From contig KQ965731.1 in the NCBI GenBank assembly GCA_001574975.1, positions 720,478 to 784,477 of the forward strand: a stretch of DNA of 64,000 nt. The letters run 5' to 3'. The stretch is from Gonapodya prolifera JEL478. Taxonomy: Eukaryota; Monoblepharomycota; Monoblepharidomycetes; Monoblepharidales; Gonapodyaceae. The translations under genes and the position numbers were made by a program. Every line of letters starts with the position of its first letter. The stretch's first letter is position 1. Under the pieces are notes generated by a model that worked only from the letters and a program-made list of their open reading frames with translations, ran no database searches and was not told the origin of the DNA. Positions 37,622 through 42,585 of this stretch are shown here, piece after piece.

Positions 37622-40409
37622 ATGGTGAAGATCTTCCCCACGCTCGCGCTCGCGCTCCTACTCTGCGTGCCACAAACCCACGGCGCCACTTCCTTGTTGA
37701 GTGTTCTCAGTGCGTTCTGAACTAAGTGTCCCTGAAATGCTTGAACCCTCAACCTCACACTTTGTCATGTCCTGCATTCTTCAGCGACATACAACACAAC
37801 AGGCAAACCCTACAACATTACATTCGTCAATCGGTTGCTCTCCCCGGCGTTTATCGGCGACGCAAACTTCGCGACCATTACATCCGCCCTCAACTCGTCC
37901 GTTCAAAACCACACAATTTTTGTGTAGGTGGATGCGCGGATCTTTTTCAATTGCAATTGCACACTCAAGGCATTTCTCTGGCGGGCTTTTTTGATCGTGC
38001 AAGTCCAACTGACGCCGCGTTCGCTGCTGCTCTGCAAAGGTAGAGTCCAAATACATCTCTAATGAGTGCACACGAAAAGATCGCACCAACCCTCCCACAG
38101 ATTCGGCGACTCCAACCTCATCAGCGGTCTCAGCGGGCAGATCTTCTCCTACCACATCTCCCCCGTCCTCGTCGATTCAAACTTCCTTGGCAACCTGAAC
38201 ACAACACTCCGCAGGGGCATCATCCCGACACTCCTCACCAACACGACAAACGCAACTCTGGCCGGTTGGATCAACGCCCGTATTTCGCCTCAGGTTCTAA
38301 GGCTGGTGGTGAATGACACCGCAAGTACGCATGTGCTGTTGCACAGCGAGTGCGCGGTCAGAGTCAACAATCACGTTTCCGTTACTCCCACCCAGTTGAA
38401 CTTAATTCTGCGTATGGCTGGTCGGCCGCCGTGATCGACAACGTCACGACCGACAATGGAATCGCATACATCAGTGAGTTGCTTCTCCGATCCCTTGCAA
38501 TATCAAACAACCCAACTGCATAATGCCAGTTTCTTCAATGCTTCTCCCACCTCTGAGCTTCTCGGCAACCTTGCTGGTACGGATCTGACTGTTACAATTA
38601 AAGCTTCCGTTTTCTTTTTTTGAACCGCTCCCCACAAGGCTGCCAACACCACTATGAGCGCTGCGGGCCACACGTTCCAGAAATTCAACGCGTACTACTC
38701 CGCGTTTCCCCAAGTGAGCCACATTGCAAACACGTATGCACCAATCACAGTGTGAGTTGTGTGCCGAGGTGCTCTCTTATCTCACCATCTCTAAGCTCCA
38801 CCGACGCTGTTTCTATTTCAGATTTGCCCTAACGGACGCCGCGTTCAACAATCTCTCCAACGTAGATGCGCATTCGGCTGAAATACTCAAGTACAACTGT
38901 AGGTACTGATGTCAAACTCAACATCGTCGAATTCCTCATCAAATAAACGCCTAGCGATTCTCGGCGGCACCGACTATCTCCTACCAAGTGGCAGCTGGCT
39001 GACTGGAAACGCTGAAACTATCACCGTCGTGAACAGTAGCCCGGCAAACGACGTGGGAAGCATCACCGTCAATGGACAAGAAGTGGTGCTTTTGGTGTGT
39101 TCTATTCACACGAATTTCTCCTTTTCGCTATATTTTTATATTGATTGGGTCAGGGAAGTGCACTGATTGAGAATGGTCTCGTGTACTTTGTCCGTGATGC
39201 AATCGTGCCACCCGACCTAAAAACAGCTCTTCAGGGTACAACAACACCTCCGGCGACAACCGCTGACCCGGCTTCGCCAACGGGTACCTCTGATTTGACA
39301 GGAGGTTTGTTTGGCTTCAATTCACATTTACAACCTTTTACAATCTGACTCTCAAACTTGCGTATTCTTTCCTAGCGCCTAGCTCCCTCAACGTGGGAGT
39401 TGTAATAGGTGCTAGTGCTGCGGGAGTCGTAGCACTAGCTCTCCTTGGAGGGACTGTAGTATACAGAGTCAGGAGGGCAAAGGTAACGACACTTTACAGC
39501 AAACAACTTGGAGGTAAGTGATCTCATTCAGAGAACCAAAATGTGGTATGACAAGTAAAGAGAACCAATTAAATTTTTGTAGATCAGGAAACAATTACTC
39601 CCTTTCACCCTGATCAAAGCAAAAGCGCAACGAAAGAACCCTTCGCAGTGCAACCCAATACATTTGTTCCACCTCTGCCATCGGAACAACTACTTTCTCT
39701 CCCGCAAGCCATGGGAAGTCCTCCGGAAACCTCACACTCGCGCTCTGTTACCACTTCAAGTGCTACATTATCATCAGGATACCTTTCTGGGGCATTGAAT
39801 TCCAGTCATATTCGAGATATTCATGCGTTGATGCAGAGCGAAAGCAAAGCATTGGGTCTTTTGCCAGCGTCAAGCAGTGAGGTAGTGTTTTCTGAATCGC
39901 AAATTGGATCGTTTACATTGAAATGACGGCGAGGAACATATTTGCAGCCACATCGTCATTACCGGCTTCTTGTTGGTGAGCTCATGTGGGATAAACCAAA
40001 CGTTCCCGCACCACCGCAAACGGTGTTCGAAGTTTCAGCACCAGTAAGTGCGACACTGCGGTGGATGCACCCAAGAAAACGTTTAAGAATTTTTGTCTTT
40101 GCATTTTGGCTTGGAGTTCGCGGCTACGGCACCAGACGAAATCTCATTGAATGTTGGGGATATGGTGAAATTAAAGATCTTGTTCCGTGATGGATGGTCG
40201 TGGGGCGTAAATGTGGAGACCGAGCAGACGGGAATGCTTCCATTGTGAGCACAATGTCAGTTCCTCATCATTATGTCATGTCCGTTGACGTGCAACAATT
40301 ACTTCCTGAAAGAGACTGCCTCTGGATTCCGGGGTCGAGTGGTACTCTGAGAAGCCAATCCGTTCGTTATGAATCGCGCCAGGCGTTTGACCAAGGTTTA
40401 GACTTCTAA
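37622..40409 (+). CDS. Membrane protein with two FAS1 domains and a cytoplasmic SH3 domain
   Basis: The start at 37622 gives a signal peptide (MVKIFPTLALALLLCVPQTHG). The first fasciclin domain shows TIFVPTDAAFAAAL (spliced), IFSYHISPVLV and VIDNVTTDNGIAYI. The second shows TVFALTDAAFNNLSN, TDYLLPSGSWLTGN, VNGQEVVLL and ALIENGLVYFVRDAI. A Thr/Pro-rich stalk precedes one membrane segment (VGVVIGASAAGVVALALLGG) with RVRRAK on the cytosolic side, then a Ser/Pro-rich tail. Introns of 77 nt (39865-39941) and about 80 nt join this tail in phase to VPAPPQTVFEVSAP, then PDEISLNVGDMVKLKI and FRDGWSWGVN and TGMLPL, an SH3 domain. A last in-phase splice adds DCLWIPGSS to QGLDF (stop 40409). FAS1 domains mediate adhesion; SH3 binds proline motifs. 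If the tail exons are not joined, the first stop is at 39926. Confidence 0.75.
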
Positions 40410-40670: not shown

Positions 40671-40766
40671 TTGGGGGTGATGTGAATGATTTCATAGCAT
40701 TTTATTGGTGCTGTGGTCAACTCAAGCAGTCCACCAGTCAAGTGATTGAATTCATACCGCCCAAAA

Positions 40767-42585
40767 TGCCGGTTTCCACCACCGCGACCCCAGAAAATGT
40801 CGTTGTTCACCCACTGGTACTCCTTTCTGTGACTGACCACTACAACCGAATGGCGCGCAATACGAACAAACGTGTGGTCGGCGTCCTGTTGGGACAGTGG
40901 AAGGGGAAATCGGTCAACATCGCCAATTCGTACGCCCGTGAGTTCTCTCTACTTGGTGCGGCATGGATGCTTTGCGAGCGCTAATGAATTCCTTACGCGG
41001 TGGGTGCTTGCGGAACCACATTTGCACCATGGATTCGCGGCGTTTTCCTATCGCAGTCCCATTCGAAGAGGACGAAAAAGACCCTTCAGTTTGGTTTATT
41101 GACCACAATTACCACGAGGCGATGTACGACATGTTCAAGAAGGTCAACGGTGAGCGTTGTGATCCTAACACAACTCCGGCGACCAAACCCACATCCGGGG
41201 AGTCACAGAACAGATGGAATTCGGGCTTGGAAGGATGCTTTTTGAACTGGAGGTTGAGGGATGATTGGACTCCAGCTTCGAGGATGATTTTTGGACGGTA
41301 GGCGTAGTGGAATGGCAGCGAACTCGCTGATTGGCGCTGCACCCGGCCCGACACAAGACTCGTATCGCTGTTGAGGCGAGATGAGACACCGTAAACAATC
41401 GTGGGAATCAGATTCGCAAAGAGGCAGGATGGCATTACAGTATCACACCAACAGGAGATATTTCATTGGAGCTACTTATGTCGGCCCAATCACCTACTGA
41501 TTATCGCACTTTGCTTTCTTCCAATTCATGTGTCCCACCCTCAGCCAAGGAGAAGCTTGTCGGATGGTACCACACCGGACCCCGACTTCGCGGTTCGGAT
41601 TTAGAAATCAATGCTCTCTTCCGTCGCTACACCCCCAACCCTGTTCTTGTCGTCATCGACGTTCGACCAAAGGATTTGGGAGTTCCTACAGACGCTTACT
41701 TTGCGGTGGAGGAGATTCATGATGTGAGTTGTGGGTACATTCAGAAAGGTGGATGGGAGTGGAGGAGTGTCGGTATGCGGCATTCACAAAGTGGCACAAG
41801 ACTCGGTGGTCAATGAATGATTTCTGGAATGGTGTCAACATCCGCAAAACGTATCCCGAACCTGTTTTGTGAGCGCCGCAATAATCACTGTATTGACGTA
41901 GGACGGCACCGCAACAACGCAAACCTTCGCACACGTTCCATCGCTTATCGAAGCCGAGGAGTCCGAAGAAATCGGCGTCGAACATCTCCTTCGCGATGTG
42001 AAAGACATTTCGCACGGAACTCTGTCGTCCAATATCACCACGCAGCTGGAATCTTTGAAGGGACTTCACGCCCGGGTTGAAGACGTGCGACATTATCTGG
42101 ACAAAGTCGTCAAGGGGGAACTTCCGGTGAACCACCGGATTATTGCGAATTTGCAGGATGTGTTCAACCTGATGCCGGATCTCGGCGTGGAAGAAGTGGC
42201 ACGGGCATTCAGCGTCAAGACGAACGATGAGATGCTGGTCATTTATCTTAGTAGTCTGGTACGGGCAACTGTTGCTCTGCACAATCTCATAAACAACAAA
42301 GTAAGTCAACGTGTGCAATGCAATTGATGCCAGAGCGATTGGATGAATCTTCCTTGGTACCCACAAAGATCCAACTTCGAGATGCTGAGCGGGAAGAATC
42401 GAAGAAGTCGGAGGAAAAGGAGAAGGTGAGAATCACGTAAATTGGTGGTGTTTGCAGACTCGATCTAACTCTGGGTTTATGAAAAGGATAAAGAGAAGAA
42501 GGAGACGGAGAAGAAAGAGGAAAGCGACGCCAAGGGGAAAGAAAGCCCCAAGGAAGCGTCCAATGATGGGAAGGGGAAGAAGTAG
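40767..42585 (+). CDS. RPN8: 26S proteasome regulatory subunit Rpn8 (MPN domain)
   Basis: The start at 40767 gives [20 protein letters not shown], followed by [19 protein letters not shown], the beginning of the MPN domain. Later exons carry [60 protein letters not shown] and the helical C-terminal part ([36 protein letters not shown]). The tail is Lys/Glu-rich, ending NDGKGKK. Rpn8 pairs with the deubiquitinase Rpn11 in the proteasome lid and lacks the JAMM zinc ligands itself. The intron between MFKKVNG and EKLVGWYH is about 400 nt (41152-41550), several times the local norm. The N-terminal sequence is preceded by the decayed monooxygenase fragment. Confidence 0.96.

Follow-up and report, generated by a model that had tools for sequence, protein, structure and literature searches.

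A FAS1 gene with a membrane-SH3 tail in a flagellated fungus, probably part of a modular receptor-like family

The window analysed here is a stretch of 64,000 nucleotides, in which we reconstructed one gene of 15 exons over positions 37622-40409 of the forward strand. The model runs from an ATG at 37622 to an end at 40409 and would encode 616 amino acids. Each of the 14 introns in this joined model is of the GT-AG type and 56-80 nt long, and the frame is unbroken over 616 codons. Read from its N-terminus, the predicted protein opens with a signal peptide and a pair of FAS1 domains; a Thr/Pro stalk leads to the membrane segment, which is followed by a Pro/Ser-rich tail and, at the C-terminus, an SH3 domain. 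The features are distributed as follows.

37622-37709, forward strand: exon 1, signal peptide MVKIFPTLALALLLCVPQTHG, judged by eye
37785-38576, forward strand: exons 2-6, first FAS1 domain, with the motifs TIFVPTDAAF, YH and ..YIISSMLLPP; best Pfam Fasciclin stretch at residues 57-195
37924-38003, 38040-38100, 38325-38395 and 38474-38529, forward strand: introns within the span of exons 2-6
38639-39304, forward strand: exons 7-10, second FAS1 domain (TVFALTDAAF ... YFVRDAIVPP), placed by eye, and Thr/Pro-rich stalk
39376-39513, forward strand: exon 11, membrane segment VGVVIGASAAGVVALALLGGTVVY by a hydropathy rule, then RVRRAK
39583-39881, forward strand: exon 12, proline/serine-rich tail, predicted to be cytosolic
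39882-39947, forward strand: intron 12, whose donor GTAGTG is weak; splicing here, in phase 0, decides the join to the SH3 exons
39948-40043, forward strand: exon 13 (96 nt), the conserved exon with PH..Y..LVG, in phase 0-0
40117-40244, forward strand: exon 14, SH3 core FAATAPDEISLNVGDMVKLKILFRDGWSWGVNVETEQTGMLP, acceptor GAG
40313-40409, forward strand: exon 15, end of the SH3 domain (DCL, with Cys at position 54) and a short end ..SVRYESRQ.. similar to ..RLES.. of the relatives

A preliminary description of this DNA, made from the letters alone, had proposed a single gene ordered from outside through the membrane to the inside. This order is borne out by the open frame of 616 codons and by the match of the SH3 exons to a conserved, phase-compatible module, and the individual elements (signal peptide by eye, two FAS1 domains, membrane segment with RVRRAK, SH3 domain) were recovered by the joined model together with Pfam and an SH3 profile. 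Twelve of the 13 N-glycosylation sequons lie N-terminal to the membrane segment. The domain search of the joined protein gave a divided answer: Fasciclin (PF02469) reaches 48.7 bits against a Pfam cut-off of 22, with two stretches reported, but the SH3 domain taken alone stays below its thresholds (SH3_1 17.4 bits, E 0.003, cut-off 22.9; SH3_9 16.7, cut-off 30). The same Pfam scan found no LRR in the protein. By eye, the frame at 40766-41816, 3' of the gene, resembles the proteasome subunit RPN8, and the gene on its 5' side, ending at about 37153, resembles the end of a flavin monooxygenase.

The join between the tail and the SH3 exons is the delicate part of this model. Retention of intron 12 would bring in a stop at 39926, which finishes 45 nt into the intron, and would yield a protein of 524 amino acids without SH3. 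G occupies position +5 in 12 of the 14 introns and is absent from the intron 12 donor, and intron 13 has the acceptor GAG. A codon-based gene finder that took the SH3 exon as its anchor, and part of whose training came from this very gene, recovered 10 of 14 introns exactly, missed introns 3, 12, 13 and 14, and started at the upstream in-frame ATG 37556 instead of 37622. It gave very low splice scores to two donors (introns 3 and 12) and one acceptor (intron 13), and the codon score over residues 500-616 was 1.5, where the first 300 residues had 13-14 per 100. Given these weak splice sites, the missed introns and the poor codon score towards the end, this locus does not by its own DNA decide for or against the join. 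The main product could end at 39926 as a FAS1-membrane protein, with the SH3 form as a minor splice product; the weak GTAGTG donor, the in-frame stop within intron 12 and the low codon score over the last 116 residues would all fit such a product. Alternatively, two adjacent genes or a decaying copy could have been joined by chance at the SH3 exons, which the low codon score of the tail and the weak splice signals at introns 12 and 13 would equally suit.

Support for the doubtful join past 39926 comes from relatives elsewhere in this genome, which share splice positions, phase and a PH(W)-type exon. Searching the genome with the window protein gave at least 77 places up to E 1, at least 59 of which are SH3 places outside the window gene; these counts are lower bounds, as 71 of 155 candidates were scored for the place list, and they may include haplotypes or recent duplicates, since C96/C17, C40/C130 and C59/C89 look near-identical. 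The DNA was read at the 25 best-scoring of the other SH3 places. An AG located 72 nt before the DGW codon, in phase 0, is present at 18 of these 25 and in the window gene (base rate 5.2%), and so is a GT located 56 nt after it, in phase 2 (18 of 25 and the window gene; base rate 6.0%). Both sites occur at exactly the positions of the window gene in 16 of the 25, which upholds the in-phase splices into SH3 read in the preliminary description and, given the low base rates, makes a chance join unlikely. Among the remainder, L075, L077, L079, L080 and L065c have neither site at the exact position, L066 and L073 miss the donor, and the acceptor is absent from L067 and L069. No membrane segment is apparent in the protein read at L077. 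L079 and L080 (C89, C59), near-identical to each other, combine a membrane segment with an SH3 domain that lacks the conserved splice sites; they are perhaps a second membrane-SH3 type.

At 14 of 21 modelled places, a PH(W)-type exon precedes the SH3 exon and is spliced to it in phase 0; in L067 the motif lies inside the SH3 exon itself. These models are rough, and those of L060, L066, L067, L069, L074, L076 and others are partial. The exon measures 102 nt in L059, L060, L063, L066, L070, L073 and L081. That of the window gene has 96 nt, reads PHRHY and thus has no W. Pfam reported no family over this conserved PH(W)AF..LVG exon between tail and SH3 (39948-40043 in the window). Those relatives whose last exon could be read continue there with DCLR...RLES or similar, and the window gene with DCLWIPGSSGTLRSQSVRYES. 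A strict test for a membrane segment 5' of the SH3 domain was passed at 17 of 26 places, the window included, and failed at nine, compared with 0 of 26 on the antisense strand of the same stretch and 1 of 26 on the antisense strand of the other side. The 30 loci of the SH3 search, minus six that belong to the list of relatives of the window protein, served as a further control: 2 of these 24 passed, and one of the two, L041, seems to have a genuine membrane segment. With its -72 acceptor, +56 donor, PH(W)-type exon and upstream membrane segment, the window gene fits the TM-SH3 family of this genome. As a single-protein query against prokaryote and viral contigs, its tail found no relatives at E 1e-3.

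Several relatives also share the FAS1 ectodomain. At C20:54528 and C96:103355, single models run FAS1-FAS1-membrane-PHP.F-SH3, the middle of the C96 model being doubtful; at C133:76760 and C17:373747 the same pieces are ordered on one strand, in pieces rather than as one model. The C96 and C17 genes are near-identical by eye, and all four carry an extra intron inside the SH3 exon. Their SH3 domain is recognised by alignment with the family, as Pfam by itself barely detects it. The possibility, raised in the preliminary description, that the two halves are always separate genes in homologs fails on these four loci. A separate-gene reading of the window locus is disfavoured by the single models at C20 and C96 and by the shared splice positions. 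A chance join appears highly improbable to us despite the weak splice sites, considering that the splice positions are identical in relatives, that the joined model has no broken frame and that other FAS1 genes show the same order. For a main product ending at 39926 the difficulty is that exons 13-15 match many relatives, FAS1 genes included, in frame, phase and motif, a match which would hardly persist in an unused SH3 domain; we judge this alternative improbable. The joined gene of 616 codons is thus preferred, and retention of intron 12 may regulate the presence of its SH3 domain.

Other relatives have an ectodomain of a different kind. In the models L061, L062, L068, L070, L072 and L078, a Cys-pair cap with the motif DC..(F)E.L(F/Y).QS...W....CC precedes plant-type LRRs, 5' of the TM-SH3 tail; a signal-like start is visible by eye in all of them except L070. 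In the four models scanned with Pfam (L061, L062, L068, L070), LRR families exceed the cut-off in each case and SH3 in none. Searched against the PDB, the L070 ectodomain retrieves the plant proteins GSO1, FLS2 and BRI1, with a best E of 6.9e-75. This resembles plant LRR receptor-like proteins and kinases, from which the relatives differ in that a cytosolic SH3 replaces the kinase; the window gene has FAS1 and no LRR.

The association between LRR and SH3 is not confined to single models. Matches to Pfam LRR_8 (64 places) occur on the same strand, no more than 3 kb upstream, at 11 of the 59 listed SH3 places; 2000 shifts gave a mean of 0.08 and never more than 2, the downstream count was 2 and that of the other strand 0. 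With the L062 ectodomain as the query (best 150 of 154 matches), and among the matches listed, 30 of 59 SH3 places have a match within 2.5 kb upstream on the same strand, although in tandem clusters (C72) such a match may belong to a neighbouring gene; 2000 shifts gave an expected mean of 0.19 and never more than 3, and the counts downstream and on the other strand were 3 and 0. Such an upstream match is absent, among the matches listed, from all 31 other SH3 places that head the SH3-search list. It is this share of SH3 places with an LRR match upstream, among the matches listed, that makes the window gene the FAS1 variant of a larger family. The architecture, described at first as unusual for a fungus, is not a one-off in this genome, since the tail recurs at dozens of places. 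Similar LRR clusters surround a FAS1-membrane-SH3 gene at C96:95626-120663 and C17:361770-382084, in mirrored orientation, and are either haplotypes or a recent segmental duplication.

In the available text of their survey, Soanes and Talbot define an LRR receptor by at least one LRR and one membrane helix, and report such receptors as missing from 45 of 49 fungal genomes (PMC2939053). Five genes from four species are named there, namely from B. dendrobatidis, two zygomycetes and Postia placenta, none of them with another predicted functional domain (PMC2939053). The relatives found here share with them the combination of LRR and one membrane helix, and L061, L062, L068 and L070, with LRR and membrane segment, correspond to that definition as given in the available text (PMC2939053). 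They differ in the further domain, which that text reports for none of the five (PMC2939053), whereas 30 SH3 places of one genome here, among the matches listed, have an LRR match close upstream.

How the FAS1 pair came to lie on this tail is a separate matter. The FAS1 genes of C5, C3, C22 and C23 give models without SH3, and the ends of those on C22 and C23 (L001, L003, L006) are GPI-like by eye. Fungal FAS1 proteins are mostly known as secreted or GPI-anchored. The window gene has the FAS1 pair in common with them; the window, C20, C96, C133 and C17 genes differ in possessing a membrane segment and an SH3 domain besides. At C5:459919-460372 (L008 1501-1656 and flanks), two FAS1 domains are followed by a Cys-rich stretch similar to chitin-recognition domains, below the Pfam cut-off at E 0.54. 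The first FAS1 domain of the window gene is 40% identical to that of C5 and 27-28% to those of C20, C133 and C96. In a FAS1 tree of seven rows, in which the root is uncertain, it groups with C5 and C22 at a modest support of 83/90. In a tail tree of 14 rows, the window tail is nearer to those of the LRR genes, and forcing the FAS1-type tails (window, C96, C20, C133) into one clade changed the likelihood by -7.25, with a p-AU of 0.042. With its FAS1 nearer to the tail-less C5 gene and its tail nearer to LRR-gene tails, the window gene suggests that a FAS1 ectodomain may have been coupled to the membrane-SH3 tail at least twice; these trees are suggestive only.

The SH3 domain itself was characterised by a profile of 19 family exons, window first, which matched 24 PDB sequences at E<=0.001 (best E 1.2e-8), including SH3 domains of vinexin, sorbin, RasGAP and others. 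The underlying alignment (A1) has 19 rows, from 25 listed members, and leaves out L063, L066, L069, L073, L074 and C17 as near-duplicates or odd, together with five non-fitting places. The W of DGW and the P of the G..P stretch are invariant in all 19. Pfam recognises these domains poorly: among six relatives scanned, only L071 passes the SH3 cut-off (SH3_1 26.6), no SH3 is reported at E 0.01 for L068 or C20, and the C96 domain has E 0.13. In the numbering of the alignment made in this analysis, position 54 is Cys in nine of 12 genes with a recognisable ..ES last exon, the window gene included; L060 has His there, and L065b and L065c have Tyr. At position 37, C20, C133, C96 and C17 have Cys and the window gene has Ser.

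These positions invite comparison with Fus1, a yeast membrane protein of cell fusion at mating, which has one membrane segment and a C-terminal cytosolic SH3 domain; to our knowledge it has neither a FAS1 nor an LRR ectodomain. The window protein would share with it the single membrane segment and the C-terminal cytosolic SH3. In the available text on yeast Fus1, its SH3 domain carries Cys at both 37 and 54, and PxxP is absent from the targets (PMC5823434). Cys54 recurs in the window gene, and Cys37 in the four FAS1 relatives but not in the window gene with its Ser37. The PH(W) exon before SH3 and the large tail family belong to the fungal genes described here and not to Fus1. The assumption in the preliminary description that this SH3 domain reads proline motifs becomes doubtful, because Cys54 replaces the last conserved aromatic, as it does in Fus1 with its PxxP-free targets (PMC5823434). 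By analogy, the ligands of the window SH3 domain are probably non-PxxP peptides.

The preliminary description had supposed the host to be a basidiomycete, which is ruled out by flagellar genes. A radial-spoke gene is present in the genome, with no match in any of 14 control genomes, and IFT57 pieces were found, three of them over the cut-off; these two genes point to a flagellated organism. Pieces of an LYS2-type aminoadipate reductase span 1-1365 of 1390 at one place, although none alone passes the cut-off of 1030. The eight pieces, on C8, sum to about 1433 bits, with a model that also rings below the cut-off in 12 of 14 prokaryote controls. Together with two partial matches to Chitin_synth_1N over the cut-off, they point to the Fungi, and so to a zoosporic, chytrid-type fungus. 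About 2 kb separate the radial-spoke gene from one of the listed SH3 places, both being on a contig of 1.04 Mb, which argues against contamination.

Taken as a working model, the window gene would produce a single-pass membrane protein whose two FAS1 domains bind wall, matrix or a partner surface on the outside. Inside, the flexible tail and its Fus1-like SH3 domain would recruit cytosolic partners to the contact site, probably through non-PxxP peptides. Adhesion coupled to recruitment of cytosolic partners is the most likely, as yet unproven, working of this protein; its ligand, its SH3 partners and the direction of signalling are what we infer from this architecture, and wiring to actin or signalling proteins, as the preliminary description suggested, may follow from it. 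SH3 domains of cortical proteins often serve trafficking or polarity, and the same tail lies under unrelated ectodomains, so that the tail could instead act as a tag for endocytosis or for delivery to a growth site, with the FAS1 part as a passive adhesin. Its spread under receptor-type LRR ectodomains better suits sensing, without being decisive, and we regard such a tag as possible but rather unlikely. As a stock module of the flagellated fungus, the tail would be placed under LRR, FAS1 and other ectodomains, and this exchangeability supports the role of an adhesion or contact receptor within a larger modular receptor-like family. We consider it probable that one gene here joins FAS1 adhesion outside to Fus1-like SH3 recruitment inside, as a member of that family.

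On the sequence evidence, then, the window gene is the FAS1 variant of an expanded LRR/FAS1-membrane-SH3 receptor-like family, and the set as a whole looks like a fungal family of cell-surface receptors. We found no description of LRR/FAS1-membrane-SH3 proteins in the openly accessible journal papers searched; the single paper retrieved for fasciclin and SH3 in basidiomycetes has the two words in its reference list alone. That the SH3 domain is split by introns and often falls below the Pfam cut-off suggests that such genes have perhaps been overlooked. In a broader proposal, which we hold to be evenly poised, this flagellated fungus would possess an expanded modular receptor system for contact or non-self sensing, in which plant-type LRR and FAS1 ectodomains are exchanged on a shared membrane-SH3 tail, possibly assembled within the fungi, with FAS1 coupled to it at least twice. 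Fungi are reported to be nearly devoid of LRR surface receptors (PMC2939053), which raises the question of how microbes, hosts and surfaces are sensed by them. If the proposal is true, dozens of membrane-SH3 genes under LRR or FAS1 ectodomains would be concrete candidates for such receptors, and their common intracellular domain would be usable as bait. Adhesion, Fus1-like SH3 tails and the evolution of receptors would thereby be linked.
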